Source of the DNA: Flavobacterium yafengii
GTDB lineage: Bacteria > Bacteroidota > Bacteroidia > Flavobacteriales > Flavobacteriaceae
Length of the DNA stretch: 64,000 bases
Reading direction: 5' to 3'
Assembly: GCF_030010375.1 (NCBI RefSeq)
Contig: NZ_JASCRY010000001.1
Span: 496,001 to 560,000, forward strand
In this document: piece after piece, positions 8,476 through 45,754 of the stretch
How the letters are laid out: each line of letters begins with the position of its first letter
Numbering within the stretch: position 1 is the first letter of the stretch
Made by a program: the position numbers and the translations under genes
The notes under the pieces: model-generated
What the model was told of the DNA's origin: nothing
Database searches by the model: none
Seen by the model: only the letters and a program-made list of their open reading frames with translations

Positions 8476-10347
8476 CTACCGTCCCATGTAAATTAACAAC
8501 ACCGAAACATCACTTGGTGAAACACCACTGATTCTTGATGCTTGAGAAATAGTTACTGGACGAATCTTGCTTAATTTTTGCTTGGCTTCAATTGACATCG
8601 ATTTGATTTTTTCATAGTCGAAATTCTCAGGAATTTTCACGTCTTCCAATCGAAGCAGTTTATCTGCATTATTTCTTTCCTTTTCGATATAACCAGAATA
8701 CTTCACTTGGATTTCAGCTTGCTCCAAAATTTCTTGATCCAAATCGTTTTCTGCAACATAAGCAACTACCTTCTCAAATTTCATCATGTCATCCAAATCA
8801 ATCTGCGGACGAGAAAACACTTTGAACATTTTATCTCCTTGCGTAATCAGAGCCGTATCTTTTGATTCTAAAATAGGATTTGCTTCCGCAACCGAAACGC
8901 TCGTTTCTTTGAAGAAAGCGACCATTTTTTCAGATTCATTTAATTTGTGTTCCATTCTGCGCAAACGCGCTTCTGAAGCCAAACCTATTTCATGTGACAT
9001 TGGCGTCAATCTGAAATCGGCATTATCCTGACGCAACAACGTTCTGTATTCCGCACGAGACGTAAACATTCTGTAAGGCTCTTCAGTTCCTTTGGTAATT
9101 AAATCATCAATTAAAACTCCGATGTAGGCTTCGTCTCTTTTTAAAATTAATGGTGCTTTTAAATGCACTTTTAAATGCGCATTTATTCCAGCCATCAATC
9201 CTTGAGAAGCCGCTTCTTCATATCCTGTAGTTCCGTTTATTTGTCCGGCGAAATACAAACCTTCAACAAGTTTTGTTTCCAAAGTATGTTTCAATTGTGT
9301 CGGCGGGAAATAATCATATTCGATTGCATAACCCGGACGAAAGAATTTCACCTTCTCAAATCCCGCAACAGAACTCAACGCTTTGAATTGAATATCTTCA
9401 GGAAGCGACGTTGAAAAACCATTTACATAGACCTCGCACGTATTCCATCCTTCTGGCTCCACAAACAACTGGTGTCTTTCCTTATCTGCAAAACGATTAA
9501 TTTTATCTTCAATCGACGGACAATATCTTGGCCCAAGACTTTTTATTCTTCCGTTAAACATTGGCGAACGATCAAAACCTTCTCTCAAAATATCATGAAC
9601 CTCAAGAGACGTATACGTCATATGACACGATTTTTGATGAATCAGCGACGACGTCACATCCGAGTAGGAAAACTTATCCGGTTTAGCATCTCCTTTTTCT
9701 TCGTTCATTTTCGAATAATCCAAAGAACGTCCATCAACTCTTGGAGGCGTTCCGGTTTTCATTCGTCCTGATTGAAAACCAGCAGCAACTAAATCTTCGG
9801 TAATTCCATACGCAGCACTCTCGCCTGCTCTTCCACCACCGAATTGCTTTTCGCCAATATGAATCAAACCATTCAGGAAAGTTCCATTGGTCAACACAAC
9901 CGATTTAGAGCGAATCTCTACTCCAAGCGAAGTACGGATTCCTTTTATTTTTCCGTTTTCAATAATCAAACCTTTCACCATCTCTTGATAGAAATCAAGA
10001 TTTGGAGTTCCTTCCAACATCATTCTCCACTCCTCGGCAAAACGCATGCGGTCACTTTGAACACGCGGCGACCACATTGCAGGACCTTTTGATTTGTTCA
10101 GCATCTTGAACTGGATTGCAGTTCTGTCCGAAACAATTCCCGAGTATCCACCAAGCGCATCGATCTCACGCACAATTTGTCCTTTGGCAATTCCGCCCAT
10201 CGCTGGGTTGCATGACATCTGGGCAATATTCTGCAAACTCATTGTCACCAATAAGGTTTTCGAACCCAGATTTGCAGCAGCTGCAGCAGCTTCTGAACCA
10301 GCATGCCCTGCACCCACAACGATTACATCATATTCATTTAGAAACAT
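8476..10347 (-). CDS. mnmG: tRNA uridine-5-carboxymethylaminomethyl(34) synthesis enzyme MnmG (GidA)
   Basis: FAD-dependent enzyme that with MnmE installs the carboxymethylaminomethyl group on wobble U34 of several tRNAs. The 623-aa protein has the dinucleotide-binding motif VGAGHAGSEAA (residues 11-21) and MSCNPAMGGIAKGQ (about 44-57). The second GidA signature GQINGTTGYEEAASQGL is near 365-381, and the C-terminal helical domain ends SPSDVSVLL. This is normal family length. In many bacteria gidA lies next to the replication origin and parAB. Here parAB are absent but parS sites sit on both sides of the gene. Confidence 0.97.
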   Translation of the reverse strand: MFLNEYDVIVVGAGHAGSEAAAAAANLGSKTLLVTMSLQNIAQMSCNPAMGGIAKGQIVREIDALGGYSGIVSDRTAIQFKMLNKSKGPAMWSPRVQSDRMRFAEEWRMMLEGTPNLDFYQEMVKGLIIENGKIKGIRTSLGVEIRSKSVVLTNGTFLNGLIHIGEKQFGGGRAGESAAYGITEDLVAAGFQSGRMKTGTPPRVDGRSLDYSKMNEEKGDAKPDKFSYSDVTSSLIHQKSCHMTYTSLEVHDILREGFDRSPMFNGRIKSLGPRYCPSIEDKINRFADKERHQLFVEPEGWNTCEVYVNGFSTSLPEDIQFKALSSVAGFEKVKFFRPGYAIEYDYFPPTQLKHTLETKLVEGLYFAGQINGTTGYEEAASQGLMAGINAHLKVHLKAPLILKRDEAYIGVLIDDLITKGTEEPYRMFTSRAEYRTLLRQDNADFRLTPMSHEIGLASEARLRRMEHKLNESEKMVAFFKETSVSVAEANPILESKDTALITQGDKMFKVFSRPQIDLDDMMKFEKVVAYVAENDLDQEILEQAEIQVKYSGYIEKERNNADKLLRLEDVKIPENFDYEKIKSMSIEAKQKLSKIRPVTISQASRISGVSPSDVSVLLIYMGR

Positions 10348-18350: not shown

Positions 18351-18680
18351 TTATTTTTGAAGTTTAGCGTTCTGCCTCTTTAACTCCGCCAATTTTTCTT
18401 CTAAAAAAGAAATTACATCTTCGGTCTTGTGACTCATATTTGAAACTAATTCTTCGTATGTTCCCTCTAAGTCATATTTTGCACTTGCGAATTTATCTTT
18501 CAGTTCTAAAGATGCATGATCAAGTTTACTTTTTAATTCACATTTGGCATCATCAAAACCATCTTTAATTTTCCCTCTTGTTTTAGAACCTTTATCTGGA
18601 GCGAATAAAATTCCGATTCCAGCTCCAATAGCTGCTCCAGTCAAAAGAGCCAATAATGTATTTCCTGTATTATTAGACAT
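18351..18680 (-). CDS. YtxH domain protein
   Basis: A 109-aa protein with a Gly/Ala-rich N-terminal membrane segment (LLALLTGAAIGAGIGILFAP, residues 9-28) followed by KGSKTRGKI and a long amphipathic helix. This is the YtxH/general-stress layout known from Bacillus. It is the first gene of the operon; TATCTTTA on the minus strand about 30 nt upstream resembles the -7 box. Confidence 0.85.
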   Translation of the reverse strand: MSNNTGNTLLALLTGAAIGAGIGILFAPDKGSKTRGKIKDGFDDAKCELKSKLDHASLELKDKFASAKYDLEGTYEELVSNMSHKTEDVISFLEEKLAELKRQNAKLQK

Positions 18681-18927
18681 GATTCTTAATTTTAAAAGTT
18701 TGTTTTATAAAGATACGAATTTATTAACAACAACCCGTTAACAACTCGTTAAAGTGTATTTCTACAAGACAAAAAGCAAATAAAAACAAGCTACTGCACG
18801 TTTATTTACTTTTCACCCTTTGTATTGTTTATTCTAAAAAGCCGTCCTAAAATCGATTTATGGATGTCGTTTTCAATTGAAAAAAAGTATTGAAAACAGT
18901 ATTTTTATAACAAATTACAATAATAAT

Positions 18928-18983: not shown

Positions 18984-21086
18984 TTATATTTTAAGATCAT
19001 TTAATAATTGTAACACTTTTTCGTTTTTCTCGTTCGTTTTTAATTCTGAAAGTTGAACTTTGAAAAGAGTAAAATTATTCAAATCATTTTGTAAATTATC
19101 GATAGCTAAAATTCTAACGGCTGCCATTTGACTTTTTAACGACATCGTGTATAATTTAGTCAAAGATTCTTCTTCAATATCTTTTACTTGAACTTTATCT
19201 GAATGATGCAAAATCAAATTAGAAAACAACAAGGAGTTATTGTCATTCTTGATATTTTTGACAATAGTCTGAATAATTAAACTGTAATTATCAATACTTT
19301 TTATGTTTTCAACAATGCTGTTTAAAATCAAACTCGCGTTGTTTTCATCCTTTTCTTTTACATATTTATTGATTTCTTTTTGAGTGTTCATCAATAAATT
19401 TTCCTCTTTTTTGCCTTTTTCTTCCCAAGCATCTTTCAATCCAACGGTTTTATTAAAGACAATTTTACCTTCAGCTGTATCTTTATCCACATTGAAATAA
19501 CCCAAACGTTGAAACTGGAATTTCTCTCCTGATTGTACTGTAGCCAAACTTGGTTCTACAAATCCTTTTACAATTTGTAATGAACTAGGATTCATAAATT
19601 CTAAGAAATTTTTCTCTTTATGACTGTCTGGTGCTTCATCGATAAATAAACGATCATAAAGACGAACTTCTGTCTCTAAAGCATGTTTTATGGAAACCCA
19701 ATGCAAGGTTCCAGCCACTTTCCTTTGACTGGCTTCACTCCCACTTCCGCTTCTACTGTCTTCATCATACGTTACATGAATTTCAGTGATATTTTCAGCA
19801 GCATCTTTTATAACACTTTCTCCTTTAATAATATAGGCATTTTTTAGACGTACTTCTCTGCCTAAACTCAATCGGAAAAACTTCGCCGGAGCATCTTCTA
19901 AAAAGTCTTCTCTTTCAATAAATAATTCTTTTGAAAAAGGAACTTTTCTAAATCCTGCGCTTTCATCTTCCTGATTATTTTCGGCTTCCAGCCATTCTTC
20001 TTTATCTTCCGGATAATTTGTAATTACTAATTTTATTGAATCTAAAACCGCCATAACTCTTGGAGCCGTTTTATTCAAATCTTCGCGCAAGCAAAACTCC
20101 AAAAGTGAAAAATCAATTATATTTTCTCTTTTGGCAACACCTATAATTTCACAAAATTTACGAATAGAAGCTGCTGTATATCCTCTTCTTCTCAATCCTG
20201 AAATAGTAGGCATTCTAGGATCATCCCAACCATTTACAATATTTTCCTGAACCAATTGCAACAGTTTTCGCTTGCTCATTACCGTGTAATTCAAGTTCAA
20301 ACGGGCAAATTCATATTGATGTGGTTTTACTTTTGAGTCTTCATAAATTTGGTCCAAAAACCAGTTGTACAATTCACGGTGCATAACAAATTCTAACGTA
20401 CAGATAGAATGCGAAATTTGTTCAATATAATCGCTTTCGCCATGTGCAAAATCATACATTGGATAGATTTTCCAATCGTTTCCGGTTCTGTGATGATGAC
20501 GGTGTAAAACACGATACATCAATGGATCACGCATCAACATATTAGTCGAAGTCATATCAATTTTGGCACGTAAAACATGGCTTCCTTCCTCAAAATCACC
20601 ATTTTTCATTCCTTCGAATAAAGTAAGATTTTCTTCAACAGAACGGTTTCTAAAAGGTCCATCAACTCCAGGTTGTGTAGGCGTACCTTTTTGCGCAGCC
20701 ATGTCTTCTGAAGATTGACTGTCAATGTAAGCGGTACCATTTTTAATCATTTTTACAGCCCAATCGTACAATTGTTGGAAGTAATCAGAAGCATAGCGTT
20801 CTTCGGCCCAATTGAAACCCAACCATTGCAAATCTTCTTTTATAGCATCTACATATTCCTGCTCTTCTTTAGCAGGATTTGTATCGTCAAAACGCAAATT
20901 AACTGGCGCATTGTACTTTAACCCTAATCCAAAATTCAAGCAAATCGATTTAGCATGACCTATGTGTAAATACCCATTAGGTTCTGGTGGAAAACGGAAA
21001 CGTAATTTATCTTGGGGAAAACCGTTTGATAAACTGTCTTCAATGATTTGTTCTATAAAATGGAGTGATTTTTCTTCAGTTGACAT
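18984..21086 (-). CDS. glnS: glutaminyl-tRNA synthetase with long C-terminal helical extension
   Basis: Class I synthetase that charges tRNA-Gln directly. The HIGH motif is YLHIGHAKS (residues 41-44 for HIGH), the KMSKS motif is VMSKRKL (about 265), and the anticodon-binding beta-barrel domains follow to about residue 557. The 700-aa length exceeds the roughly 554 aa of E. coli GlnRS. The extra 143 residues are Asn/Lys/Leu/Ile-rich and look like consecutive helices. Some bacterial GlnRS carry a YqeY-like C-terminal domain that helps tRNA binding; whether this tail is a diverged form of it is unclear. Confidence 0.95.
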   Translation of the reverse strand: MSTEEKSLHFIEQIIEDSLSNGFPQDKLRFRFPPEPNGYLHIGHAKSICLNFGLGLKYNAPVNLRFDDTNPAKEEQEYVDAIKEDLQWLGFNWAEERYASDYFQQLYDWAVKMIKNGTAYIDSQSSEDMAAQKGTPTQPGVDGPFRNRSVEENLTLFEGMKNGDFEEGSHVLRAKIDMTSTNMLMRDPLMYRVLHRHHHRTGNDWKIYPMYDFAHGESDYIEQISHSICTLEFVMHRELYNWFLDQIYEDSKVKPHQYEFARLNLNYTVMSKRKLLQLVQENIVNGWDDPRMPTISGLRRRGYTAASIRKFCEIIGVAKRENIIDFSLLEFCLREDLNKTAPRVMAVLDSIKLVITNYPEDKEEWLEAENNQEDESAGFRKVPFSKELFIEREDFLEDAPAKFFRLSLGREVRLKNAYIIKGESVIKDAAENITEIHVTYDEDSRSGSGSEASQRKVAGTLHWVSIKHALETEVRLYDRLFIDEAPDSHKEKNFLEFMNPSSLQIVKGFVEPSLATVQSGEKFQFQRLGYFNVDKDTAEGKIVFNKTVGLKDAWEEKGKKEENLLMNTQKEINKYVKEKDENNASLILNSIVENIKSIDNYSLIIQTIVKNIKNDNNSLLFSNLILHHSDKVQVKDIEEESLTKLYTMSLKSQMAAVRILAIDNLQNDLNNFTLFKVQLSELKTNEKNEKVLQLLNDLKI

Positions 21087-23373: not shown

Positions 23374-25566
23374 TTATTTAATTGGTTCTTCAATTCTTCT
23401 TAAAAAATTAAAATCCAGTTGTTTTTTAACTAAATCGGCATTTTTTACTTTAACGTAAATTTCATCTCCTAATTGTAATAATTTACCAGAAGTTGCGCCG
23501 GTTAATGCATATTGTTTTTCATCGAAGGTGTAATAATCGTCTTTTATATCTCGAATTCTACACATTCCTTCACATTTATTTTCGATTATTTCAACATAAA
23601 TTCCCCATTCCGTCACACCAGAAATTACTCCTAAAAATTCTTGATCCTGATGATCCTGCATGTATTTTACCTGCATGTATTTAATAGAATCTCGTTCTGC
23701 ATTGGTTGCCAAGCCTTCCATTGTGGAAGAATGAACACATTTTGTTTCATACGTTTCTTCATCAGCTGATTTTCCTCCATCAAGATAATGTTGTAATAAT
23801 CGATGCACCATTACATCGGGATAACGACGAATTGGCGAAGTAAAATGAGAATAATAATCAAAAGCTAAACCGTAATGTCCTATGTTGTCCGTAGAATATT
23901 TGGCTTTACTCATACTTCTAATCGCAAGCGTATCAATTAAATTCTGTTCTTTTTTACCATTTACTTCTTCCATCAAAGCATTCAATGATTTAGAAATATC
24001 TCCTTTGTTTCTAAAATCAATTTTGTAACCAAACTTTGCAATTACCGTTTGCATGGCAATTAATTTATCTTCGTTTGGTTCATCGTGAATCCTGTAAATG
24101 AAAGTTTTCTTTTGTTTTCCAATGTATTCCGCTACTTTTTTATTCGCCAAAAGCATGAATTCTTCAATCAGATGATTCGCATCTTTGGAAACTTTAAAAT
24201 AAACTCCTTGAGGTTCTCCAGCTTCATCTAAATTAAATTTCACTTCTACTTTATCAAAAGAAATCGCTCCATCAGCCATTCTTCTTTTTCTGAAAATTTT
24301 AGCTAATTCATCCATTTTTAGCGTCGCAGCAACAATTTCTTTCGAAACTTGATATGAACTTCCAGTTATAGAAATTTCTTCCGGAATCACATCATCCTTG
24401 GTTTCTATAATGTATTGCGCTTCTTCGTAAGCAAAACGTTGATCGGAGTAAATTACTGTTCGACCAAACCATTGATTGACCACTTGCGATGTTTCAGTGA
24501 TTTCGAAAATAGCCGAAAACGTATATTTTTCTTCATTTGGACGCAAAGAACACGCAAAATTTGATAATACTTCCGGTAACATTGGTACTACTCTATCTAC
24601 TAAATAAACCGAAGTCGCTCTTTGATACGCTTCATCATCCAGGATTGTTCCTTCTTGAAGATAATACGAAACATCGGCAATGTGAATACCAATTTCGTAA
24701 TTACCGTTTTCTAATTTTTTAAATGAAAGTGCATCATCAAAATCTTTGGCATCTTTTGGATCAATCGTAAAAGTCAACGTATCTCGCATATCGCGACGTT
24801 TGGCAATTTCACTTTCTTCTATCGAAGTATCAATTTTTTGTGCAAATGTTTCTACTTCAATAGGAAACTCTGAGGGTAATCCATATTCAGCAAGAATAGC
24901 GTGAATTTCTGTATCGTGTTCTCCTGGTTTCCCTAAAACTTTTATTACAGAACCAAAAGGACTATCGGCTCTGGCTGGCCAATCTTCGATATGAACCAAA
25001 ACTACATCTCCTTGCTCCGCCTCGCCTATTTTATCCTTTGGAATAAAAATATCAGTATACATTTTTGGATTGGCTGTAGAAACAAAAGCAAAATTAGCTT
25101 GAATGTCAATTACACCAACAAAGTCGGTTTTATTTCTTTCAATCACTTCAATCACTTCACCTTCAGGTCTTTTCCCTTTTCTACGATTGTAGACATACAC
25201 TTTAACAATATCTTTGTCTAAAGCGTGGTTCAAATTGTTAGTAGGAATAAAAACATCCTCTTCCATTTCAGGACAAACAAAATAAGCGGTTTTACGTCCT
25301 GTCATGTCAATCTTACCTTCGTAATACTCTTTACTTTCAGCTTTCACTAAGTATTTACCCGGTTCTGATTCTATAATTTTATTTTGAGAAGCCAAAATCT
25401 TCAAATCTTTGATAATTTGATTCCTGCTTTCGGTATCATCAAGCTCCAGCTTTGCTCCTATTTGTTTATAATTGAATGCTTTATTAGCACTTTGCGATAA
25501 TATTTTTACAATTTTTTCAGAGAAATCTTTCTCTTTTTTTATCGGCTTTCTTAATCTTTTACTCAT
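23374..25566 (-). CDS. rnr: ribonuclease R
   Basis: A 730-aa 3'-5' exoribonuclease that degrades structured RNA. Order of domains: N-terminal winged helix (about 15-70), two cold-shock domains (about 80-235), the RNB catalytic domain, and a C-terminal S1 domain (about 640-725). In the RNB domain the metal-binding motif is DPKDAKDFDDALS (near 273-285), with HIADVSYYL and the YRIHDEPN and HFTSPIRRYPD motifs further on. Length is normal. It is the last minus-strand gene before the strand switch and borders the proposed origin region with a small DUF2007 gene between. Confidence 0.96.
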   Translation of the reverse strand: MSKRLRKPIKKEKDFSEKIVKILSQSANKAFNYKQIGAKLELDDTESRNQIIKDLKILASQNKIIESEPGKYLVKAESKEYYEGKIDMTGRKTAYFVCPEMEEDVFIPTNNLNHALDKDIVKVYVYNRRKGKRPEGEVIEVIERNKTDFVGVIDIQANFAFVSTANPKMYTDIFIPKDKIGEAEQGDVVLVHIEDWPARADSPFGSVIKVLGKPGEHDTEIHAILAEYGLPSEFPIEVETFAQKIDTSIEESEIAKRRDMRDTLTFTIDPKDAKDFDDALSFKKLENGNYEIGIHIADVSYYLQEGTILDDEAYQRATSVYLVDRVVPMLPEVLSNFACSLRPNEEKYTFSAIFEITETSQVVNQWFGRTVIYSDQRFAYEEAQYIIETKDDVIPEEISITGSSYQVSKEIVAATLKMDELAKIFRKRRMADGAISFDKVEVKFNLDEAGEPQGVYFKVSKDANHLIEEFMLLANKKVAEYIGKQKKTFIYRIHDEPNEDKLIAMQTVIAKFGYKIDFRNKGDISKSLNALMEEVNGKKEQNLIDTLAIRSMSKAKYSTDNIGHYGLAFDYYSHFTSPIRRYPDVMVHRLLQHYLDGGKSADEETYETKCVHSSTMEGLATNAERDSIKYMQVKYMQDHQDQEFLGVISGVTEWGIYVEIIENKCEGMCRIRDIKDDYYTFDEKQYALTGATSGKLLQLGDEIYVKVKNADLVKKQLDFNFLRRIEEPIK

Positions 25567-25684
25567 AAATCTGTTCTTAAAAGTCTAAAATTACAAAATA
25601 CTAAATTGTTTTTAGTAAAGAGTTCACAGTTTTAAAGAAAATATAACTTTACAGAATAGTTGTATCTTTATAAAAACAATCAAA

Positions 25685-25918
25685 ATGGAAGACTTTCAAA
25701 CAATTGCGATTTTTAATTATTCACATGAAATTGTAGTGCTGAAGCATTTATTGGAACAAGAAAAAATTAATTATTTTTTTGAAAACGAAACCTTAGTTTC
25801 TGTAGATCCATTTGGGAGTTTTGCTTACGGTGGAATAAAGCTTAAAATTCACATCAATGATTTTGAAAAAGTGCAAAAATTTTTAGATGACTTGAATAAC
25901 AATCTAAAGATCGTTTAA
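25685..25918 (+). CDS. DUF2007-like small protein
   Basis: A 77-aa protein with the beta-alpha-beta layout of the DUF2007/putative signal-transducing family: FQTIAIFNYSHEIVVLKHLLEQEKI at the start, then NETLVS and IKLKIHINDFEKVQKFLDD. It has a PII-like predicted fold and unknown role. Many members have a zinc ribbon, absent here. It is the first plus-strand gene right of rnr; TATCTTTA at 25663-25670 is a probable -7 box. Confidence 0.7.
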   Translation: MEDFQTIAIFNYSHEIVVLKHLLEQEKINYFFENETLVSVDPFGSFAYGGIKLKIHINDFEKVQKFLDDLNNNLKIV

Positions 25919-26630
25919 AACAAAATTAGAACCCTAAAATCTATTTTTTGAATTTTAATTTTTTCAAAGTTGTCAACATATATTTAAATAAACAAAAAGA
26001 AAAATTAAATTTAAATTCTTTCTTGGTTGTTATTATAGTGTGTTAATAGTGGCAATAAATTTATTTTAAAATGTATTGAAATCAACTTAAAAGATGTTAT
26101 ACGGACTTATCAACATAGTTATTTTATACTAAAGTCTTCGTTTTAAAGTCTTTTCTAATTTTAATTAACAATGGTTAATAATCTAAAAAGAATTGATTTT
26201 GTAAATAAGTACTTTTTTAAAATTTGTTAATAAACTACTTTTTAATAATGATAACTATTCTAAAAATTCAACAAACTAAATTTGGATTTCTAATGTGGGT
26301 TTTGGATTACTTATTTTTTGGTTACAACCATAAAAAACTTCTAATATTCTATCTAAAGTTATGAACATTGTATGTTAATTTAAAGTTAACTGAATATCAA
26401 GCAATTGCATTTTGCTATTAACAATGTAAATTTTTAACATTTTAAATATAAAATCTACATTGATTCACAGCTATTTATAAACTTATTAGAATTGTTGATA
26501 ACCGCTAATCAAATAGTAATCTGACAGTTATAAAATCTATTGTCAACTTTTATTTTTACTGACTTTTATCAATTGTAATAATCAATTAAAGAAGCTAAAT
26601 TTAATTTCTGCAAAACTAGATTTCTTTATT
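25919..26630. other. oriC: putative chromosomal replication origin (oriC)
   Basis: This is the largest gene-free stretch in the window (745 bp to the rpiB start) and is very AT-rich. It holds TTATCAACA at 26107-26115 and its inverse at 26493-26501. These are one base from the DnaA box TTATCCACA. Weaker forms are TTGTCAACA (25970-25978), TTGTCAACT (26540-26548), CTATTAACA (26415-26423, and inverted at 26041-26049) and TTATTAACA (inverted, 26225-26233). Gene orientation switches from mostly minus to mostly plus at this point, and four parS sites lie about 16 kb away. The combination is what is expected of oriC. dnaA itself is not nearby, and no skew plot was computed. Confidence 0.6.
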
Positions 26631-26638
26631 TAAATTTG
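26631..26638 (+). promoter_or_regulatory. -7 box of rpiB
   Basis: TAAATTTG, a perfect match to TAnnTTTG, 25 nt before the rpiB ATG. No convincing TTG was seen at the -33 distance. Confidence 0.55.
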
Positions 26639-26663
26639 CACCACACAACTTAATACATACAAG

Positions 26664-27092
26664 ATGAAAATCTCCATAGGAAACGATCACGCAGGACCAG
26701 ATTACAAAAAAGCAATTGTTGAGATGCTTAAAGCAAAAGGACATGAGGTAACTAATTACGGAACGGATTCAGCAGACAGTGTTGATTATCCTGATTTTGG
26801 TCATCCAGTTGCGACTGATGTTGCTGAGGGAAAAGCTGATTTTGGAATTGTTATCTGCGGTAGCGGAAACGGAATTTCTATGACAGTGAATAAACAGTCT
26901 AAAGTACGCGCTGCTTTATGCTGGATAAAAGAAATTGCGGTTTTGGCGCGTCAACATAATGATGCAAATATTATTAGTATTCCTGCTCGTTTTACTTCAA
27001 TTCCACAAGCAGTAGAAATGGTAGAAGCGTTTTTAAATACTGAATTTGAAGGTGGAAGACACCAAAATAGAGTAGATAAAATTTCTTGTTAG
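26664..27092 (+). CDS. rpiB: ribose 5-phosphate isomerase B
   Basis: A 142-aa RpiB/LacAB-family isomerase interconverting ribose 5-phosphate and ribulose 5-phosphate in the pentose phosphate pathway. It shows ISIGNDHAGPDYK at the start, the active-site Cys65 in GIVICGSGNG, and RQHNDANI with the conserved His98. Length is normal. It is followed by an unusual pair of overlapping inverted repeats. Confidence 0.95.
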   Translation: MKISIGNDHAGPDYKKAIVEMLKAKGHEVTNYGTDSADSVDYPDFGHPVATDVAEGKADFGIVICGSGNGISMTVNKQSKVRAALCWIKEIAVLARQHNDANIISIPARFTSIPQAVEMVEAFLNTEFEGGRHQNRVDKISC

Positions 27093-27103
27093 AATCTTTT
27101 ATT

Positions 27104-27171
27104 GACTGAATTTACATTAATTTGGTCAACGCACTGACTGAATTAGTGTAAATTCAGTCAGTGCGTTGACC
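27104..27171. repeat. two overlapping, mutually exclusive hairpins after rpiB
   Basis: 27124-27144 and 27151-27171 are perfect 21-bp reverse complements with a 6-nt loop. Independently, 27104-27122 pairs with 27141-27159 (19 bp, one wobble). The second pairing uses bases of both arms of the first, so only one can form at a time. A T6 run at 27179-27184 follows the first hairpin. It could be an attenuator, a terminator with an alternative fold, or a miniature mobile element. Confidence 0.6.
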
Positions 27172-27221
27172 GAATTACTATTTTTTGATTATATTTGGTT
27201 TAGATTTCTAAATCAAATAGA

Positions 27222-34962: not shown

Positions 34963-35952
34963 ATGAACAAAAACCAACCCAATAACCAAGAGGATCAAGA
35001 GATTGATTTGATGCAAATTTCTAGAAAAATAGGAAGATTATTTGAATGGATTAATACCTTTTTATTCAAATGTATTCAGTTTTTTGTAAAAAATGCGATT
35101 GTAATTTTGATTTTGCTGGTAATTGGAGTTGGATTAGGGTTTTATTTAGATGTGACAAAAAAAACCTATGATCATCAAATTATAGTTACTCCAAATTTTG
35201 AAAGCACGGATTATTTATATTCAAAAATTGAATTGATTGAATCTAAAATCAAAGAACAGGATACCGTTTTTCTTAAAGAAATTGTAAGGATAAAAAGCCC
35301 TAAAGAAATAATTAAAATTGAAATCAAACCTATTACTGACGTTTATAAATTCATTGAAAACAAGACAGAAAACTTCGAATTAATTAAGTTGATGGCTGAG
35401 GGCGGAGATATAAAAAAAATCCTCGAAGATAATTTGACAAGTAAGAATTACACGTTACATACTATTACTTTCAAAACCAAAAAACAAACAAAGAATACCG
35501 AAACTGTCGAACCTATTTTAAATTATTTAAACGAAACGGATTACTATAAAAAAATCCAAAAAGAAACGGTAAATAATGTTCAAATAAAGATGATTCAAAA
35601 TGACACTATTATTTTACAAATAAATGGTGTTTTGAATGGATTTTCTAATATGGTAAATGGCGCTCAAAAAAGTGACAAACTGGTTTATTATAATGAAAAC
35701 ACGCAGCTTAACGATGTTATTAAAACGAAAGAAACTTTAATTAATGAACAAGGAGATCATAGAGTAGAATTAGTTGGATTAGATAAAATTATAAAAGACA
35801 ATAGTGCAACATTAAATATTGAAAATACGGACTCAGTCAATGGAAGATTAAAATTGGTTTTGCCTATTTTATTTTTGTTTTCATTTATTTTGATTCGTTT
35901 ATTTATCGGTTTTTATAGAAAGCAGTCTGTAAAAGCAAACTTGAGCAATTAA
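34963..35952 (+). CDS. Wzz-like polysaccharide co-polymerase (two-helix membrane protein)
   Basis: A 329-aa protein with a transmembrane helix at about 44-63, a periplasmic domain of about 235 residues with alpha/beta character, and a second helix at about 300-320. This is the topology of polysaccharide co-polymerases (PCP/Wzz) that set chain length. Direct sequence resemblance to Wzz is weak and no cytoplasmic kinase domain follows. Its place before the flippase gene, 10 bp after DUF6909, supports an envelope polysaccharide role. Confidence 0.5.
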   Translation: MNKNQPNNQEDQEIDLMQISRKIGRLFEWINTFLFKCIQFFVKNAIVILILLVIGVGLGFYLDVTKKTYDHQIIVTPNFESTDYLYSKIELIESKIKEQDTVFLKEIVRIKSPKEIIKIEIKPITDVYKFIENKTENFELIKLMAEGGDIKKILEDNLTSKNYTLHTITFKTKKQTKNTETVEPILNYLNETDYYKKIQKETVNNVQIKMIQNDTIILQINGVLNGFSNMVNGAQKSDKLVYYNENTQLNDVIKTKETLINEQGDHRVELVGLDKIIKDNSATLNIENTDSVNGRLKLVLPILFLFSFILIRLFIGFYRKQSVKANLSN

Positions 35953-36022
35953 GAAATTAGGATTTAGAGTAGTGTTTAATACATTTAAAAAGCGCAAAAT
36001 ATGATCAATACATAGTATTTCA

Positions 36023-37255
36023 ATGAATATAAGTAGAACAAGATTAAACATGATATCTAACTTTTTTTACATTGGCGTAATGAAGTTTTTGAATATTGGT
36101 TCTAAGTATATTCTGGTGGGTTACTTGATTAGAGTTTTGGGGGAGAATGGATATGGAACATTAACTTGGGTAGATTCAATTGTTCAATATTTTATAATGC
36201 TAATCAATTTCGGTTTTGATTTGTATGCGGCTAAATATGTAGTCGAAAACAAGAACAATCCTAAAAAGCTGAACGAAGCAATTTCTGCCATATATTATAT
36301 CAAAGGCATACTATTTCTCATTTCTTTTATTTTATTGATTCCACTGACTTTTAATACAGAAATTAACACTGTTATTAATCTAATTTTTCTGATGCTTGTA
36401 ATGGGAATCGGTGAAGTGTTGACTCCCATTTGGTTTTTCCAAGGTATTGAGAAAATGAAAACCATTACCATTATCACTTTTTTCTCTAAACTAATTCTAG
36501 TTTTACTGACTTTTTTCTTTATCAAAAATAATACAGACATTCATTTGTATATTTTATTTTTAGTATTTACAAATATCATTTGGGGCTTTTTTGGTTTTTT
36601 AATGATGAAAAAAGAAGCAAACTTTAAATTTGTTGTGGTTACTTTTGATTTAATAAAAAACTATTTAAAAGAAGGATATCTCTTTTTTATAGGTAAGCTT
36701 TCTACTTTTTTGTTTAATCTGGGGACGGTATTTTTAATAGGTTATTTGTTTACCAAAGGTCAAGTTGCAGGTTTTGATATCGCTATTAAAATCGTCTTTG
36801 TTTTTATTATTCCTTTTGAAGTTTTGCAGCAAGCACTTTTCCCTGTTATAGTCAGGGGAGTAAAGAAAAGTGTACTTAGAAATATTACAGTTGCAACATT
36901 TATTATCAGCACAGCTACCTCAGTTTTGTTATATATTTTTTCTGAAAATGTAATTGTAATTTTTGGAGGAATTGAAATGTATAAATACAGCTATGTTCTT
37001 GATTTACTTTTGATTTTAATTCCTATTGTTAGTTTAACAATAGTCGTGGGAAATTGTATTCTTGTGGCAAAGGGATATTACAAGCAATACAATTGGTCTT
37101 TGATAGTATCAGCAATAGTATTTGTTTTCTTACTGGTTGTATTAAAAACTACCAATCAATTGAATTTTTTAAATGTTATTTTAATTCGGGTTTTGGCAGA
37201 TTTCATCCAATTATTAATTAGATTCTACTACAATTTTAAATTTAAAATAATTTAA
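36023..37255 (+). CDS. wzx: Wzx-type polysaccharide flippase
   Basis: A 410-aa membrane protein with about 12 hydrophobic segments and the N-terminal pattern of MOP-superfamily O-antigen flippases (NMISNFFYIGVMKFLNIGSKYILVGYL, LGENGYGTLTWVDS, IWFFQGIEKM). It would move an undecaprenyl-linked oligosaccharide across the inner membrane. It opens the polysaccharide locus proper. The locus here has much lower GC than the housekeeping genes around it by inspection, common for surface glycan clusters. Confidence 0.88.
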   Translation: MNISRTRLNMISNFFYIGVMKFLNIGSKYILVGYLIRVLGENGYGTLTWVDSIVQYFIMLINFGFDLYAAKYVVENKNNPKKLNEAISAIYYIKGILFLISFILLIPLTFNTEINTVINLIFLMLVMGIGEVLTPIWFFQGIEKMKTITIITFFSKLILVLLTFFFIKNNTDIHLYILFLVFTNIIWGFFGFLMMKKEANFKFVVVTFDLIKNYLKEGYLFFIGKLSTFLFNLGTVFLIGYLFTKGQVAGFDIAIKIVFVFIIPFEVLQQALFPVIVRGVKKSVLRNITVATFIISTATSVLLYIFSENVIVIFGGIEMYKYSYVLDLLLILIPIVSLTIVVGNCILVAKGYYKQYNWSLIVSAIVFVFLLVVLKTTNQLNFLNVILIRVLADFIQLLIRFYYNFKFKII

Positions 37256-37306
37256 ATAGTACTATGAAAGTGATTAAAAAAGTTAATTTTGAAAAAAAGT
37301 ATTAAA

Positions 37307-37930
37307 ATGAGAATAAATAACTTATTTGCTTTAGGGCTTTTTTCTTTGTTTTTGGTTTCTTGTTCCAAGAGCCCAAAGGAATTAGTATTAGAGGCAAAAA
37401 ATGGCAACATAGAAGATGCTTTAATATGTAAATTTTTACCCTATCAAAATTTTTCTGAAGAAGAAAACATCCATTTATATTCCTCAAAACAAGGAGATTC
37501 AATAAATGTTAATAGGGTAGTTTTAAGTTTCAAGGAAATTCCTGCTAATATAAAAATTGATAGTGCTTTTTTACAATTAAAATTTAATGCAAAATCTGTA
37601 ATAGGAAAAGAGAGTTTTGGCGAAAATGGTTTTATTATTCAACGTATAATTTCTCCATGGGATGAGACCGAAGTGAACTGGGCGAATGCACCTGTTACAA
37701 CAGATCATAACCAGATTTTCACGGATAAAACTAAACTTAACAAAGACCCAAACAGAATTAATGTTACAAGATTAGTTCAAGATATTTCTGATGACAAAGA
37801 CAATAGTTATGGGTTTTTATTAAAGTTGATAAATGAAAATAGTAGTTCTTTAGTTCTTTTAGCGTCAAGTAATAATAGTGAGGCAAGTTTAAGACCTAAA
37901 TTAAAAATATATTATTCAGATAAACAATAA
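37307..37930 (+). CDS. DNRLRE-domain lipoprotein
   Basis: I start at ATG 37307 (207 aa), giving a clean lipoprotein signal peptide with lipobox FLVSC (Cys 19). An upstream TTG at 37289 is the only alternative. The body is a single beta-sandwich with the DNRLRE signature: paired strands, IISPWDETEVNWANAP, NRINVTRLVQDI, YGFLLKLIN and LRPKLKIYY. DNRLRE domains occur in extracellular proteins such as cell-wall and fibre proteins, probably binding glycans or stabilising them. A secreted lipoprotein between the flippase and the polymerase genes is unusual. Confidence 0.85.
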   Translation: MRINNLFALGLFSLFLVSCSKSPKELVLEAKNGNIEDALICKFLPYQNFSEEENIHLYSSKQGDSINVNRVVLSFKEIPANIKIDSAFLQLKFNAKSVIGKESFGENGFIIQRIISPWDETEVNWANAPVTTDHNQIFTDKTKLNKDPNRINVTRLVQDISDDKDNSYGFLLKLINENSSSLVLLASSNNSEASLRPKLKIYYSDKQ

Positions 37931-37950
37931 AACCATTTTTTTTTTATTTG

Positions 37951-39228
37951 ATGAAACTATATTTTAGAAAAACATCTTTGCCAGTCCTATTTGAATTTAT
38001 ATTATTTATAAGTTTAGTGGAGACTGGTTTTTTTTATTTTTTTAAATTACTTGGCCTTCAACAATTCCAAATGATACCTTACTTGAGGTTAATGTCGTTA
38101 TTCTTCACCTTTTTATTCTTCTTCAAAAACAAATTTTATCTCAATAATTTTTTTAAAATCAGTTTAAAAGCAAACTCAGAAAACCTTTTGGTTCTAGTAT
38201 GGGTCAGCTTTACTATTCTAGGTTTTTTCGTGGGTATAGTACACCGAAATTCTATTTTATATCTTTTTACAGATATGATCTATATTCTTTTTGGGTATTT
38301 TTTATATCGGATTTTTTATAGCAATCAAAAATTACTGGATGAAATTACAGTTGAATTAACGCTACCGCAAGAACACTATTTTGTTATCTCTATTTTATTT
38401 CTTTCAGGAGTAGCATTTGTTTTAAACATCGACTTGCCTTCTTTCACAGTAGTTTTCACCTTAGTATATGCATTATATCATTACAATAAAAAAAACTATG
38501 GCCTGATGTTTTTGTATTCACTGCCTTTCTTTTTTCAAATACTTAAATCAAACAGAGCTTTATTGCTAGTTTTTATTTTAGTATTGTTTTTTGCCTTTGT
38601 ACAAAAAAGATTTTCAAAAAAAAACAGCAACGATTTTCTGCTAATAATTGTAGTTTTTCTGTTGTTGTCTTTTTTCTTTTTAGATGATGTATTAAAAGTC
38701 ATAATTAGTTATTTCCCGGAGAATTCTGCTTTAAAGGACCGATTGGTTCAAGTGTATTTATTATTAAAAGGCAATATAGATTGGAACTCTCCTGCATTAC
38801 TATCTCTTAGCCAGCGAATTGATGAAGCAAAAGTGGTGATAGCATATTGGTGCTTAAATCCTTTTAATTTTTTATTTGGAGGAGGAATGGGAGCTACAAT
38901 TGAAGGTTTTTCTTTTAAAGATATTGGCGTTGCGGACTCTGCGTTATTAGGAAAAACAGCTATTCATAATATTCATTTATTACCATTTTCCTTAATTTTT
39001 AGATATGGAGTTATAGGAATTGGTCTGTTTTTGATTCTAATATATAATTTATTTAAATATTTATTTCGGATCATTTTATCGGAACAATCCTTGTTTAAAA
39101 CATTGATTGTGTTTCAGTTTTGTTGGATATTATATTCCTTTCCTGCAGCTTCTTATTTATGGACCTGCCCATTATTTTGGATAACATTAGCTTACGTCTC
39201 AAATGAAAAAAGAATCAACTTTTCTTAA
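37951..39228 (+). CDS. O-antigen polymerase-like membrane protein (Wzy candidate 1)
   Basis: I start at ATG 37951 (425 aa); a TTG directly before it gives no added domain. The product has about ten to eleven hydrophobic segments and a large loop (about 270-330) containing FLFGGGMGATIEG and AIHNIHLLPFSLIFRYGVIG. A His-Asn pair in this last periplasmic region is typical of O-antigen polymerases and ligases. It overlaps the next polymerase-like gene by 26 bp, suggesting coupled translation. Confidence 0.7.
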   Translation: MKLYFRKTSLPVLFEFILFISLVETGFFYFFKLLGLQQFQMIPYLRLMSLFFTFLFFFKNKFYLNNFFKISLKANSENLLVLVWVSFTILGFFVGIVHRNSILYLFTDMIYILFGYFLYRIFYSNQKLLDEITVELTLPQEHYFVISILFLSGVAFVLNIDLPSFTVVFTLVYALYHYNKKNYGLMFLYSLPFFFQILKSNRALLLVFILVLFFAFVQKRFSKKNSNDFLLIIVVFLLLSFFFLDDVLKVIISYFPENSALKDRLVQVYLLLKGNIDWNSPALLSLSQRIDEAKVVIAYWCLNPFNFLFGGGMGATIEGFSFKDIGVADSALLGKTAIHNIHLLPFSLIFRYGVIGIGLFLILIYNLFKYLFRIILSEQSLFKTLIVFQFCWILYSFPAASYLWTCPLFWITLAYVSNEKRINFS

Positions 39229-40402
39229 TTATATTTTATATTCTATAGCTTTTTTTACACTGTTACCTAATAGTGTAAAAGAATTGCCATTTATGTTATT
39301 GGGACTATTTTCTATTGTTGTTTTTATAAGAGAAAGAAAGATCGACACCAAAACGTTTACAATACTAGTGCTTTTTTTTGTTGTAAATCTTTTCAGTTTG
39401 TTATATACCAAAGATTTATTTTATGGATTAAAACGAATAGAAGGATTCCTTCCTTTGCTCTATCTTGCTTTTTCGTATTGTGTATTCTCAAAAATGGAAT
39501 TAAGATTTGAAAGAAAATTTGTAGAGAATTGGATATTAATTTTTAACGGCTCTAATTTTGTTTTTTTAATTGTCGTTAGCTTGTATTTTTATTATCAAAA
39601 TATTCCAATAACGTACAATACAATCCGGACGGTTTTCAATGAAATCCCGTTGATTAATATGCATCCTATTTACCTGTCGATTACTTCAGTTCTGGGTTTG
39701 ATGTCTTGTATTTATATTTTCAGGGATAACTTAAAAAAATGCTCTTTTTTGATAGTGGTAAATATTGTTTTGCTTTTTCTAACTGGGGCAAGGGCTACTT
39801 TTATTGGTTTTTTTATGATTTTATTTTTGGTGTTATTTTTTGGAAGATTATCTTTAAAAATAAAATTTTCGGTGGGAGTAATTTCTTGTTTTTTGATTTA
39901 TTTCCTTTTTGCTTTTAATAGTGATTTTAAGAAAAGGTTTATAGAAATGATTATTCCGGTTTCCTATTCAAAGGTAAATCCAAACAATTCCACAAGTGTT
40001 CGAATTGCGGTTTGGGATTGCGGAATTCAAAAAATTAAAAGCTCAAATACTTTAATTGGAAATGGGATTGGAGATGTTCCTTCTGTTTTGCAACAATGTT
40101 ATGATGTACAATACCCTGAATTAGAGAAATATTATAATACACACAATCAGTATTTCAGTATTCTTTTAGGAACGGGTTTGATTGGCTTACTAAGTTTCTT
40201 GCTTTTTTTTATGTATCTTTTCGTTAATGCTTTAAAAAATAAAAATAATTTTCTGTTAGTGCTTGTTTTATTTTATCTCTATATATTTAATTTTGAAAAT
40301 ATTATAGAAAGAAAATACGGAATTTTATTATTGCTGTTCTTCTTGTTTTTCGTTTTTAATATTTTCACTAAACCGGCAAATAAACCTGTTGAAACTGTTT
40401 AA
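39203..40402 (+). CDS. O-antigen ligase/polymerase family protein (Wzy/WaaL candidate 2)
   Basis: A 399-aa membrane protein with about eleven hydrophobic segments and a clear Wzy_C-type region: LTGARATFIGFFMILF, IGNGIGDVP and YYNTHNQYFSILLGTGLIGLLSFL. The His in THNQY is the conserved catalytic candidate of O-antigen ligases. Which of the two adjacent proteins polymerises and which ligates cannot be told from the sequence. Confidence 0.8.
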   Translation: MKKESTFLNYILYSIAFFTLLPNSVKELPFMLLGLFSIVVFIRERKIDTKTFTILVLFFVVNLFSLLYTKDLFYGLKRIEGFLPLLYLAFSYCVFSKMELRFERKFVENWILIFNGSNFVFLIVVSLYFYYQNIPITYNTIRTVFNEIPLINMHPIYLSITSVLGLMSCIYIFRDNLKKCSFLIVVNIVLLFLTGARATFIGFFMILFLVLFFGRLSLKIKFSVGVISCFLIYFLFAFNSDFKKRFIEMIIPVSYSKVNPNNSTSVRIAVWDCGIQKIKSSNTLIGNGIGDVPSVLQQCYDVQYPELEKYYNTHNQYFSILLGTGLIGLLSFLLFFMYLFVNALKNKNNFLLVLVLFYLYIFNFENIIERKYGILLLLFFLFFVFNIFTKPANKPVETV

Positions 40403-40408
40403 TTTTTG

Positions 40409-41497
40409 ATGCAAAATAAAATTTTAATTATAGGCCCTTTTCCGCCACCAATATCTGGAGTGAGTATTGCAAATCTGGTTGTTTCTAAAGGACTGCGTAA
40501 AAAAAACTGGAAAGTTGACAAGATAAATTCAGAATATTCAGAATCCATTACCCATAAACACGGTAGAATTAGTTTTAAAAAATTATATTTTATTAGAACG
40601 TATTTACTTGTTGGGAAAGTCTTATTTTCAAAAATCACTTACATTACCATAGGTCAATCTTATTTTGGAGTTTTAAAATATCTCCCATTCATAGTATTAG
40701 CTAAGATTGCCAAAAAAAAATTGGTCGTTCACTTACACGGAAACCATCTACTCAAGGAGTATAATGTATTGAAAGGATTAAAAAGAATCATTTTCCGTAA
40801 GTTAATTTCAATGTTTGATTATGGAATTGTTTTGTCAGAATCATTGCGCAATAATTTTGAACCTTTTTTAAAAAAAGAATCTATTTTTGAGTTGCATAAT
40901 TTTTTTGAGGAATCATTAATTCTGCCTCCAGAAAAGTTAATTCAACAAAAAGAGTACTCAGAGTTAAGAGTCGTATTTTTGAGTAATTTAATAGAAGAAA
41001 AAGGAATTAATATTTTATTGGAAGCGGTAAAAAAATTAAAAGCAAAAGGAATAAATATTCAGTTAAAAGTTGCTGGTAACAAGATTAAAGAAAATAATCT
41101 ATCTAATTATTTTAATACTTTAGACGGTGTAGATTATGTGGGAGTAGTTCACGGGGAGGAAAAACAGAAATTATTGCTTTGGAGCAATGTTTTTTGTTTG
41201 CCAACCTTTTATAAAATGGAAGGTCAACCCATAAGCATATTAGAGGCAATGGCGATGGGGAATTTAATACTCACAACCAACCATGCCGGAATAACAGATG
41301 TTTGCAAAGAACAAAATGCTATCTTTTGTGAAAAAGAAAATGTAGAAGATTTAGCAAATAAATTAGAAGAATTAGTCGATGACCAAAATCAGATTCGACA
41401 AAAAGGACTGCTAAATATGCACTATGCTAATGCATATTTCACTGAAGAAATGTTTATTGAAAACGCAAATAAAATTTTATTGCAATGTATCAACTAA
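40409..41497 (+). CDS. GT4-family glycosyltransferase
   Basis: A 362-aa GT-B glycosyltransferase. It starts MQNKILIIGPFPPPISGVSIAN with the N-terminal Rossmann motif, and the C-terminal donor domain carries LPTFYKMEGQPISILEAMAMG, the GT4 EX7E motif that binds the nucleotide sugar. The sugar and linkage are unknown. The TTG three bases before the ATG is disregarded. It overlaps the acetyltransferase gene by 13 bp. Confidence 0.88.
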   Translation: MQNKILIIGPFPPPISGVSIANLVVSKGLRKKNWKVDKINSEYSESITHKHGRISFKKLYFIRTYLLVGKVLFSKITYITIGQSYFGVLKYLPFIVLAKIAKKKLVVHLHGNHLLKEYNVLKGLKRIIFRKLISMFDYGIVLSESLRNNFEPFLKKESIFELHNFFEESLILPPEKLIQQKEYSELRVVFLSNLIEEKGINILLEAVKKLKAKGINIQLKVAGNKIKENNLSNYFNTLDGVDYVGVVHGEEKQKLLLWSNVFCLPTFYKMEGQPISILEAMAMGNLILTTNHAGITDVCKEQNAIFCEKENVEDLANKLEELVDDQNQIRQKGLLNMHYANAYFTEEMFIENANKILLQCIN

Positions 41498-44386: not shown

Positions 44387-45754
44387 ATGAGTGCATCTCA
44401 AACAGGAAGATATTCAAAGTACATTAGACCCATTAGTATTTTAATAGATCTGACAGTCATCTTGATTCTTGGTTTTTTCTTTTTCAAAGACCTTAATTTC
44501 AAGATTGAGTACTTTATTGTTTATCAGGTAGTTGGATGGGTTACGGTTGCTTTTTTTATAAGATTCTACGGGATATATCGTTTTACGACTCCGCTTGAAA
44601 TTATATCAAAACTAGTCAAGCAGGGCGTTTTATTTCTTTTAATAACCATTGCTTTTTTTCCGTTTTCAAAACAAGTTGTTTTTAGCGGAATAGTGACAGC
44701 CATGTTTATATCCTCCGTGATGTTACTAATTACTATTTCAAAATTTCTATTATTTTATTATTTAAAAGAATATAGAATTATAACAGGGAGTAATTATAGA
44801 AGCGCTGTCATTATTGGATATACTCCGGAGGCGATAGAATTAAAGAATCTTTTTGAAACAAGAAATGATTATGGGTATCGCTTTTTAGGCTATTTTTCAG
44901 ATAAGAAGTCAAATCAAAATATTAAAGGGAAATTAGCAGATTTGAAACCTTTTGTACTTGAAAATTGTATAGATGAAATTTATTGCTCGTTAAACGAAAT
45001 TTCCAACGAGGAATTAAAAGATTTAATTGATTTTGCGGATGAAAATAATAAAACGATAAAATTTATACCCGATACAAAAGAGATTTTTTCGAAAAATTTA
45101 AAAATTGATTACTACGAATTTTTCCCGGTACTCTCTTTAAAAAAAACCATGCTTCATGAACCTGCTACAATGGTATTTAAAAGGGTTTTTGACATTGTTT
45201 TCTCCAGTATAATTATTGTAGTTCTCTTATCTTGGCTCATTCCATTATTGGCAATTTTAATAAAATTAGAATCTAGAGGTCCTGTGTTTTTCAAACAAGG
45301 AAGGCCTGGAATTGATGAAAATGAATTTTTCTGTTATAAATTTCGATCTATGAAAATCAATAAAACAACAGAAATAGAAGCCTCAAAAAACGATCCGCGT
45401 GTTACCAAAATAGGGAAGTTTATGCGAAAAACAAGTTTAGACGAAATGCCTCAATTCTTAAATGTTTTACTTGGTGAAATGTCAGTTGTAGGTCCGCGAC
45501 CGCATCTTTGGGCTCAAAATAAAGTCTACGGAAATAAAGTTAAAAAATATATGGTGCGCCATTATGTTAAACCAGGGATTACGGGATTAGCTCAGGTGAG
45601 TGGTTTTCGTGGCAAAATTGAAACAGAAGCCGATATGATTAATAGAATAAAATTTGATGTTTTCTATATTGAAAATTGGTCTTTAATTTTAGATTTAAAA
45701 ATAATTTCCCAAACGATTATCAATATTTTTAAAGGAGAAGAAAAAGCCTATTAG
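44387..45754 (+). CDS. WcaJ-type undecaprenyl-phosphate sugar phosphotransferase
   Basis: A 455-aa initiating transferase. It has four to five N-terminal transmembrane segments (about 14-125), a cytoplasmic Rossmann-like domain (about 140-250), one hydrophobic hairpin (about 280-305), and a C-terminal Bac_transf catalytic domain with GRPGIDENEFFCYKFRSMK, TSLDEMPQFLNVLLGEMS and VVGPRPH. It loads the first sugar phosphate onto undecaprenyl phosphate and so starts the repeat unit. Its end overlaps the opposing glycosyltransferase gene by 4 bp tail-to-tail. Confidence 0.92.
   Translation: MSASQTGRYSKYIRPISILIDLTVILILGFFFFKDLNFKIEYFIVYQVVGWVTVAFFIRFYGIYRFTTPLEIISKLVKQGVLFLLITIAFFPFSKQVVFSGIVTAMFISSVMLLITISKFLLFYYLKEYRIITGSNYRSAVIIGYTPEAIELKNLFETRNDYGYRFLGYFSDKKSNQNIKGKLADLKPFVLENCIDEIYCSLNEISNEELKDLIDFADENNKTIKFIPDTKEIFSKNLKIDYYEFFPVLSLKKTMLHEPATMVFKRVFDIVFSSIIIVVLLSWLIPLLAILIKLESRGPVFFKQGRPGIDENEFFCYKFRSMKINKTTEIEASKNDPRVTKIGKFMRKTSLDEMPQFLNVLLGEMSVVGPRPHLWAQNKVYGNKVKKYMVRHYVKPGITGLAQVSGFRGKIETEADMINRIKFDVFYIENWSLILDLKIISQTIINIFKGEEKAY

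Follow-up and report, generated by a model that had tools for sequence, protein, structure and literature searches.

The 745-bp intergenic gap at positions 25919–26663 of the DNA analysed here very probably serves as oriC in this Flavobacterium. The window, that is, the whole stretch of 64,000 nucleotides, corresponds to positions 496001–560000 of contig 1 (1,728,193 bp) in a draft genome of 3.92 Mb and 21 contigs. With a probability of about 0.94, the gap is the chromosome's DnaA-dependent, bidirectional origin. This reading builds on three features located by computation, namely the position of the skew switch, a conserved array of 9-mers and a conserved gene setting. From them we infer that DnaA, encoded 0.8 Mb away, would bind seven conserved 9-mers of approximate consensus TT[A/G]TNAACA in both orientations, that the DnaA oligomer would melt the A+T-rich left side of the array (about 25975–26275), and that helicases would load at the melted stretch, so that replication would start in the gap. 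Forks leaving it both ways would account for a left arm with negative skew and mostly minus-strand genes and a right arm with positive skew and mostly plus-strand genes.

The gap, its neighbours and the skew switch

Between open reading frames (ORFs) of at least 77 aa, the gap is the largest interval of the window (runner-up 427 bp), and its A+T content is 79.6%; the initial annotation had singled it out as the longest non-coding stretch and as highly AT-rich, and both descriptions hold. On its left it is bounded by a plus-strand 77-aa ORF (25685–25918), conserved in relatives and without an NCBIfam or Pfam match, beyond which lies rnr (ribonuclease R, 23374–25566, minus strand; NCBIfam TIGR02063, 735.7 bits against a cut-off of 597.85). 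On its right follows rpiB (ribose-5-phosphate isomerase B by NCBIfam, 26664–27092, plus strand), whose closest relatives among the named matches, at 96% identity, are those of Flavobacterium glaciei and F. sinopsychrotolerans. The mnmG (gidA) gene, which serves as an oriC marker in Flavobacteriaceae (PMC11278836, PMC12843772), is found 16 kb from the gap (8476–10347, minus strand; Pfam PF01134, 526.5 bits). Elsewhere in the window, the G+C content falls to about 27–28% over several plus-strand ORFs at 35000–41000, upstream of a bacterial sugar transferase gene (44387–45754), a region that looks like an acquired surface-polysaccharide cluster.

In a mechanical count of ORFs of at least 77 aa, from which smaller overlapping ones were removed, 15 of 21 ORFs left of the gap lie on the minus strand and 28 of 35 to its right on the plus strand. 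The flip in gene direction claimed earlier (about 16 of 21 and 30 of 40) thus stands as a trend, with one exception directly at the boundary, where the 77-aa ORF is on the plus strand. Since the ORFs diverge from the gap, a terminus is argued against.

GC skew on the own contig (one 1.73-Mb contig, sampled) is negative in all eight stretches left of the gap and positive in 13 of 14 to its right; at 4-fold degenerate sites the signs are as expected in 8/8 and 14/14 stretches, some of them near zero. Over a contiguous 104 kb, the minimum of the cumulative GC skew is common to positions 25601 and 26714, which flank the gap, and the five largest skew steps (20 kb to the right versus 20 kb to the left) fall at 25701–26701. 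A distant skew minimum had been named beforehand as one of three findings that would speak against a replication origin, yet the minimum brackets the gap, and the origin reading is supported.

The same switch was found in ten other single-contig genomes, five of Flavobacterium and five of other genera of the family. In all ten, the GC skew of the 20-kb stretch downstream of rpiB exceeds that of the upstream stretch; the upstream sign is negative in nine (G036 is positive) and the downstream sign positive in nine (G291 is slightly negative). At 4-fold sites, the downstream value is higher in 8/10 genomes (exceptions G164 and G235), with the expected sign upstream in eight and downstream in nine. 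About 200 kb out from rpiB, the expected GC signs are still present in 9/10 and 8/10 genomes.

Two complete congeners, G010 and G042, were sampled around the whole chromosome in 24 stretches of 20 kb each, and in both the skew switches arm at the orthologous site and again close to the antipode of that site, save for single stretches. In G010 (3.45 Mb), GC skew is negative in seven of eight stretches from base 1 to rpiB (1.04 Mb) and positive in all eight after it (to 2.08 Mb); three stretches at 2.24–2.60 Mb comprise one negative and two mixed, and the last five (2.75–3.45 Mb) are all negative, the antipode of rpiB lying at 2.77 Mb. In G042 (5.88 Mb), the stretches before rpiB are negative in 5/7 cases by GC skew and in 7/7 at 4-fold sites; those after it are positive in 11/12 up to 3.84 Mb, the one at 4.12 Mb is mixed, and 4/4 beyond are negative, with the antipode at 4.06 Mb. 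The pairing of a skew switch with an antipodal terminus, as looked for in an oriC, is therefore seen, the draft genome itself providing the switch only and the two congeners, by sampling, the antipode.

In most bacteria, the origin lies at dnaA. Here dnaA is on the same contig about 0.80 Mb from the gap, so that the adjacency typical of a dnaA-linked origin is missing, as the initial annotation had noted. An origin at dnaA, with the gap being something else, would agree with seven congener records (G010, G022, G036, G042, G045, G057 and G073) that begin at dnaA (the AAA domain of DnaA is at base 415 or 517) and have rpiB 0.87–1.12 Mb further on, and with two of 29 loci having TTATCCACA upstream of their dnaA gene (0.1 expected). 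The skew contradicts it: the own-genome stretches before, at and after dnaA are all positive at 4-fold sites, and in G010 and G042, where dnaA stands at about base 1 within one arm, 4-fold skew is negative on both sides, that is, at both record ends (the first stretch of G042 has a GC skew of +0.009 although its 4-fold sites are negative). Of 31 dnaA loci, 29 offer 100 bp or more of upstream sequence, and none of these has an AACA-type box there. With neither a skew switch nor AACA-type boxes at dnaA, this alternative was rejected as extremely improbable.

The gene setting of the gap is itself conserved. A total of 138 rpiB loci were compared: 30 from a search of the genus, the own genome (L021) included, a further 28 from other genera of the family and 80 named ones. 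In 125 of them, rpiB has rnr as its neighbour on the opposite strand, and 99 of these also have the 77-aa ORF; of the remainder, one has the ORF without rnr and 12 have neither, several being at contig ends. Outside Flavobacteriaceae, rnr was found at 10 of 55 rpiB loci and was arranged differently, for instance on the downstream side of rpiB. The earlier expectation that gene context alone would miss this origin is thus correct for dnaA, as the seven congener records illustrate, and not for the stable rnr/rpiB context, nor for mnmG 16 kb away; published work on Flavobacteriaceae already places oriC by skew or mnmG (PMC11278836, PMC12843772). In eight named relatives (L157, L158, L164, L182, L191, L197, L199 and L212), the small ORF and rpiB are about 2.4–2.7 kb apart instead of the usual 0.6–0.9 kb, as if genes had been inserted beside the origin.

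A conserved array of DnaA-box-like sites

Seven conserved DnaA-box-like sites span about 530 bp of the gap (25970–26501) in both orientations. From left to right, with matrix scores and mean identities over 73 loci, they are TTGTCAACA at 25970–25978 (+; 12.4 bits, 0.96), CTATTAACA at 26041–26049 (−; 9.2 bits, 0.94), TTATCAACA at 26107–26115 (+; 9.0 bits, 0.95), TTATTAACA at 26225–26233 (−; 8.6 bits, 0.84), TTATGAACA at 26359–26367 (+; 9.7 bits, 0.91), a second CTATTAACA at 26415–26423 (+; 11.7 bits, 0.96) and a second TTATCAACA at 26493–26501 (−; 0.85), which at 16.9 bits has the top score of the window. A weaker site, TTGTCAACT at 26540–26548 (+; 9.2 bits), is unconserved in the genus. The inverted TTATCAACA pair and its surrounding variants TTGTCAACA, CTATTAACA and TTATTAACA had all been pointed out in the initial annotation and were recovered at these positions. 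The count of TTATCAACA alone means little in such an A+T-rich window (3 copies versus 1.45 expected, with 19 of 100 shuffles reaching 3; genome-wide, 127 copies versus 96 for a reversed-pattern control), and the weight therefore rests on clustering and conservation.

The clustering was assessed by applying to the window a matrix whose training set came from other genera of the family alone. It yields 12 matches at 8 places in the gap, the top count for any 745-bp stretch in a 424-kb sample of the own genome, in which stretches away from the gap reach at most 8; 300 shuffles gave a mean of 1.5 matches and a maximum of 6. A DnaA-box cluster has been defined as at least three boxes with a mean spacing below 100 bp (PMC7561715), and the variant consensus forms one, with 8 places within 25970–26548 at a mean spacing of 81 bp. 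No cluster arises from the canonical TTATNCACA, of which the gap holds no copy, and the boxes are for that reason putative DnaA sites.

These counts also bear on whether the true origin might lie in another nearby gap, for example at mnmG or at 18.7 kb, leaving the 745-bp gap as a secondary DnaA-binding site. The proximity of mnmG (16 kb) and a small second group of matrix matches at 18721–18746 speak for this; against it, the skew minimum is at the rpiB gap, and near 18.7 kb no 745-bp stretch has more than 8 matches, versus 12 in the rpiB gap, and five of the 8 overlap within 26 bp. We consider it very unlikely. The 18721–18746 group, TTATTAACAACAACCCGTTAACAACT, sits between a minus-strand ORF (18351–18680) and glnS (18984–21086, minus strand), and is possibly a second DnaA-binding site or a product of chance.

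Motifs were counted in 112 of the 138 gaps, excluding those with no left neighbour, below 300 bp, above 1200 bp or containing N. They comprise 86 genus-level gaps, which include a few metagenome-derived records filed under other names as well as one duplicate pair (L022 and L149), and 26 from other genera. In the genus-level set, TTATCAACA has 118 copies (2.6 expected), TTATTAACA 122 (10.1), TTGTCAACA 63 (1.7) and CTATTAACA 98 (1.7); in the other genera, the respective counts are 16 (0.5 expected), 19 (2.3), 9 (0.4) and 7 (0.5). Removal of the duplicate pair leaves 117 copies of TTATCAACA, 120 of TTATTAACA and 62 of TTGTCAACA. The canonical forms TTATCCACA, TTATTCACA, TTATGCACA and TTATACACA have no copy in the 86 genus-level gaps; in the 26 others they occur 0, 4, 2 and 1 times, so that the three TTATNCACA forms besides TTATCCACA amount to 7 copies versus about 1.5 expected. 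At the 60 of 80 named loci with a usable gap, the density of [T/C]T[A/G]T[C/T]AACA is 6.97 per kb in the gap versus 0.37 in the flanks, and that of CACA-type boxes 0.09 versus 0.20.

Of the 74 genus-level gaps that have the 77-aa ORF at their border, 73 were aligned, leaving out a near-duplicate, and conservation was read from this alignment position by position. Mean identity to the window is 0.84–0.96 for seven of the eight boxes and 0.19 for the eighth (26540). As a set, the box positions have a conservation of 0.824 versus 0.639 elsewhere in the gap, a value equalled by none of 744 circular shifts. In boxes 26107, 26225, 26359 and 26493, position 5 is the most variable (identity 0.64, 0.29, 0.18 and 0.34), position 3 of box 26225 being about equally free (0.30), and position 6 is nearly invariant (1.00, 1.00, 1.00 and 0.93). 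The three remaining conserved boxes vary at position 3 or 1. Among all seven, identity to A at position 6 is 1.00 (rounded) in every box but one, where it is 0.93; this A takes the place of the C of TTATNCACA, with which the boxes otherwise share a free position 5 and fixed T2, T4, A7, C8 and A9 (positions 7–9 at least 0.84). Position 5 is also free in the Escherichia coli box 5′-TTATnCACA-3′ (PMC5742627), and this shared freedom is the best argument from sequence for regarding the boxes as DnaA boxes in which A replaces C6. Two further blocks are conserved over the 73 loci, GTTTTGGATTA at 26299–26309 (at least 80% identity at every position) and TGAATATCAA at 26391–26400.

Such conservation might instead reflect a long regulatory region of rpiB and its left neighbours, in which a regulator would read GTTNNNAAC-like palindromes and the skew switch would be coincidental. 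Several boxes do lie within a near-palindrome (GTTATCAAC and GTTGTCAAC, with 89 and 81 copies in the 86 gaps), and TAAATTTGCA at 26631–26640 (+), conserved in the alignment, is a probable promoter element of rpiB; the Bacteroidetes −7 motif is TAnnTTTG. The array of about 530 bp, however, far exceeds the needs of a promoter, four of its seven conserved boxes vary most where DnaA boxes, too, are free, and the skew minimum lies no more than a few hundred bases from the array, which makes a purely regulatory role very improbable. Sigma-70 promoter patterns show no excess over shuffles (11 versus 10.5). A conserved RNA as the source of the conservation was rejected, as the seven matches of an Rfam scan were all below their gathering scores and none was inside the gap. 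In the interval between rpiB and the next gene (27094–27194), below-threshold matches to several microRNA families most likely reflect a terminator-like hairpin.

An origin in the gap would also call for an A+T-rich, easily melted element, and predicted stability provides one at the scales of 300 and 745 bp. By nearest-neighbour energies, the least stable 300 bp of the window are 25978–26277, a candidate DNA unwinding region with low points near 25975–26024 and 26175–26249, and the least stable 745 bp are 25892–26636; at 60 and 100 bp the window's minima lie elsewhere, the gap ranking sixth and fourth. A scan for DnaA-trios gave no clear element, only one run of four trio-like triplets at 26547, in a non-conserved part.

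DnaA residue 435 and the type of box

The altered base in the boxes has a possible counterpart in the initiator. Domain IV of the own DnaA, aligned to E. coli DnaA (1j1v), reads DHATV for DHTTV, placing Ala at the position of Thr435, and the same Ala is found in 30 of the 31 dnaA loci of the genus. In E. coli, the helix 434–451 reads TnCACA and the T435M variant is defective in box binding (PMC5742627); T435 is also counted among the residues making specific contacts (PMC7561715). The one exception in the genus comes from G106, where a small contig carries a divergent second dnaA that may be a contamination. In another single-contig Flavobacterium (G096, contig 1, about 1660812–1661296), the DnaA domain is matched in two overlapping pieces, one with in-frame stops, which indicates a broken dnaA or a sequencing error.

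We tentatively propose, at somewhat below even odds, a shifted origin code in Flavobacteriaceae: the box would have moved from TTATNCACA to about TT[A/G]TNAACA while the base-reading residue 435 went from Thr to Ala, the origin staying beside rpiB in several families of the order. If true, Flavobacterium DnaA would prefer TTATNAACA over TTATNCACA, and the family would offer a natural example in which an initiator and the sites it binds have changed in concert.

For 35 genomes, 30 from the order and five chosen for their long gap from a set of 25 genomes outside the family, boxes of the types TT[A/G/T]TN-AACA and TT[A/G/T]TN-CACA were counted over the 700 bp that precede rpiB, or 122 bp in the case of G437. 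The two Thr genomes have one AACA and six CACA boxes (G337) and none of either (G434). The eight Ser genomes of family f2 sum to 16 AACA and 7 CACA boxes, with none in G545, and the other Ser genome, G432, has no boxes of either type. In the twelve Ala genomes of family f33, the sums are 24 AACA and 10 CACA versus shuffle expectations of about 4.0 and 1.6; since both exceed the shuffles, Ala does not exclude the CACA type in this family. TATTAACA is enriched in the same 700 bp, with 14 copies at 8/12 loci in f33 (1.1 expected) and 10 copies at 4/4 loci in families f34 and f36 (1.1 expected). Some relatives thus look intermediate, with both box types in Ser lineages and canonical boxes in one distant Thr genome. 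The idea that residue 435 and box position 6 covary cleanly was rejected: the correspondence is partial, and its Thr end depends on one genome. The order-wide match between residue and box type is suggestive only, and outside Flavobacteriaceae the tie between box shift and DnaA change is only partly supported. The other 20 genomes of the 25-genome set have few or no boxes upstream of rpiB, so that the link to rpiB does not hold phylum-wide. Locus L249, from the distant Thr genome G337 of the same phylum, carries the six canonical-type boxes upstream of rpiB, hinting that the link between origin and rpiB may be old.

Comparison with known origins

Separation of oriC from dnaA is common in Bacteroidetes (PMC4755523). 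In Mariniflexile litorale, dnaA-first numbering does not fit the skew, and Ori-Finder places oriC beside mnmG, the labels of a figure legend differing from the placement in the text (PMC11278836); the legend of an Algorimicrobium map likewise gives oriC (mnmG) (PMC12843772). The skew of Flavobacterium enshiense is reported to switch at gltX, 0.71 Mb from a dnaA start (PMC9867689). In F. columnare, a hot spot for the acquisition of CRISPR spacers falls on the oriC predicted by DoriC (PMC8092290), an indirect experimental hint.

Like the gap, the predicted origins of Bacteroidota (by DoriC, Ori-Finder or skew; Prevotella intermedia, PMC4755523, and others) were placed by skew and boxes with dnaA distant. 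That of Elizabethkingia meningoseptica is a 649-bp region, with dnaA about 1.9 Mb away by its coordinates (PMC8994065). The Elizabethkingia and Prevotella origins were scanned with the E. coli box, allowing one mismatch, unlike the variant consensus of the gap. In the available parts of these reports, the rnr/rpiB setting and the TT[A/G]TNAACA consensus do not appear, and the likeness drawn here is one of description. Among the matches listed from the open literature, available in part and with the DoriC tables left aside, there is no description of an rpiB setting or an AACA-type box in Flavobacteriaceae, which is weak evidence of absence.

The practical consequences concern the position itself. 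The origin of a large genus would be located within a few hundred bases, and an origin in the rpiB gap would explain why dnaA-based genome numbering misplaces base 1 by about one megabase. In Flavobacteriaceae, the right site is needed for estimating replication rates, for analysing skew and for building oriC plasmids.

Compared with the oriC of E. coli, the gap is similarly intergenic and A+T-rich, with an array of 9-mer boxes in both orientations, and domain IV of Flavobacterium DnaA aligns over most of its length to 1j1v. It differs in its rnr/rpiB setting with mnmG 16 kb away, in boxes that carry A for C at position 6 without any canonical box, and in the Ala that replaces Thr435. A lineage-specific box is also known from cyanobacterial origins with their TTTTCCACA boxes, in one species distant from dnaA (PMC6323995, PMC10225481); there the change is at position 3, whereas in the gap it is at position 6. 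The gap is thus an ordinary kind of object placed where the dnaA rule fails, its interest lying in the well-conserved array and the altered box. With dnaA-distant origins already known in Bacteroidetes (PMC4755523, PMC11278836), the less ordinary feature is the shifted box together with the change in DnaA.
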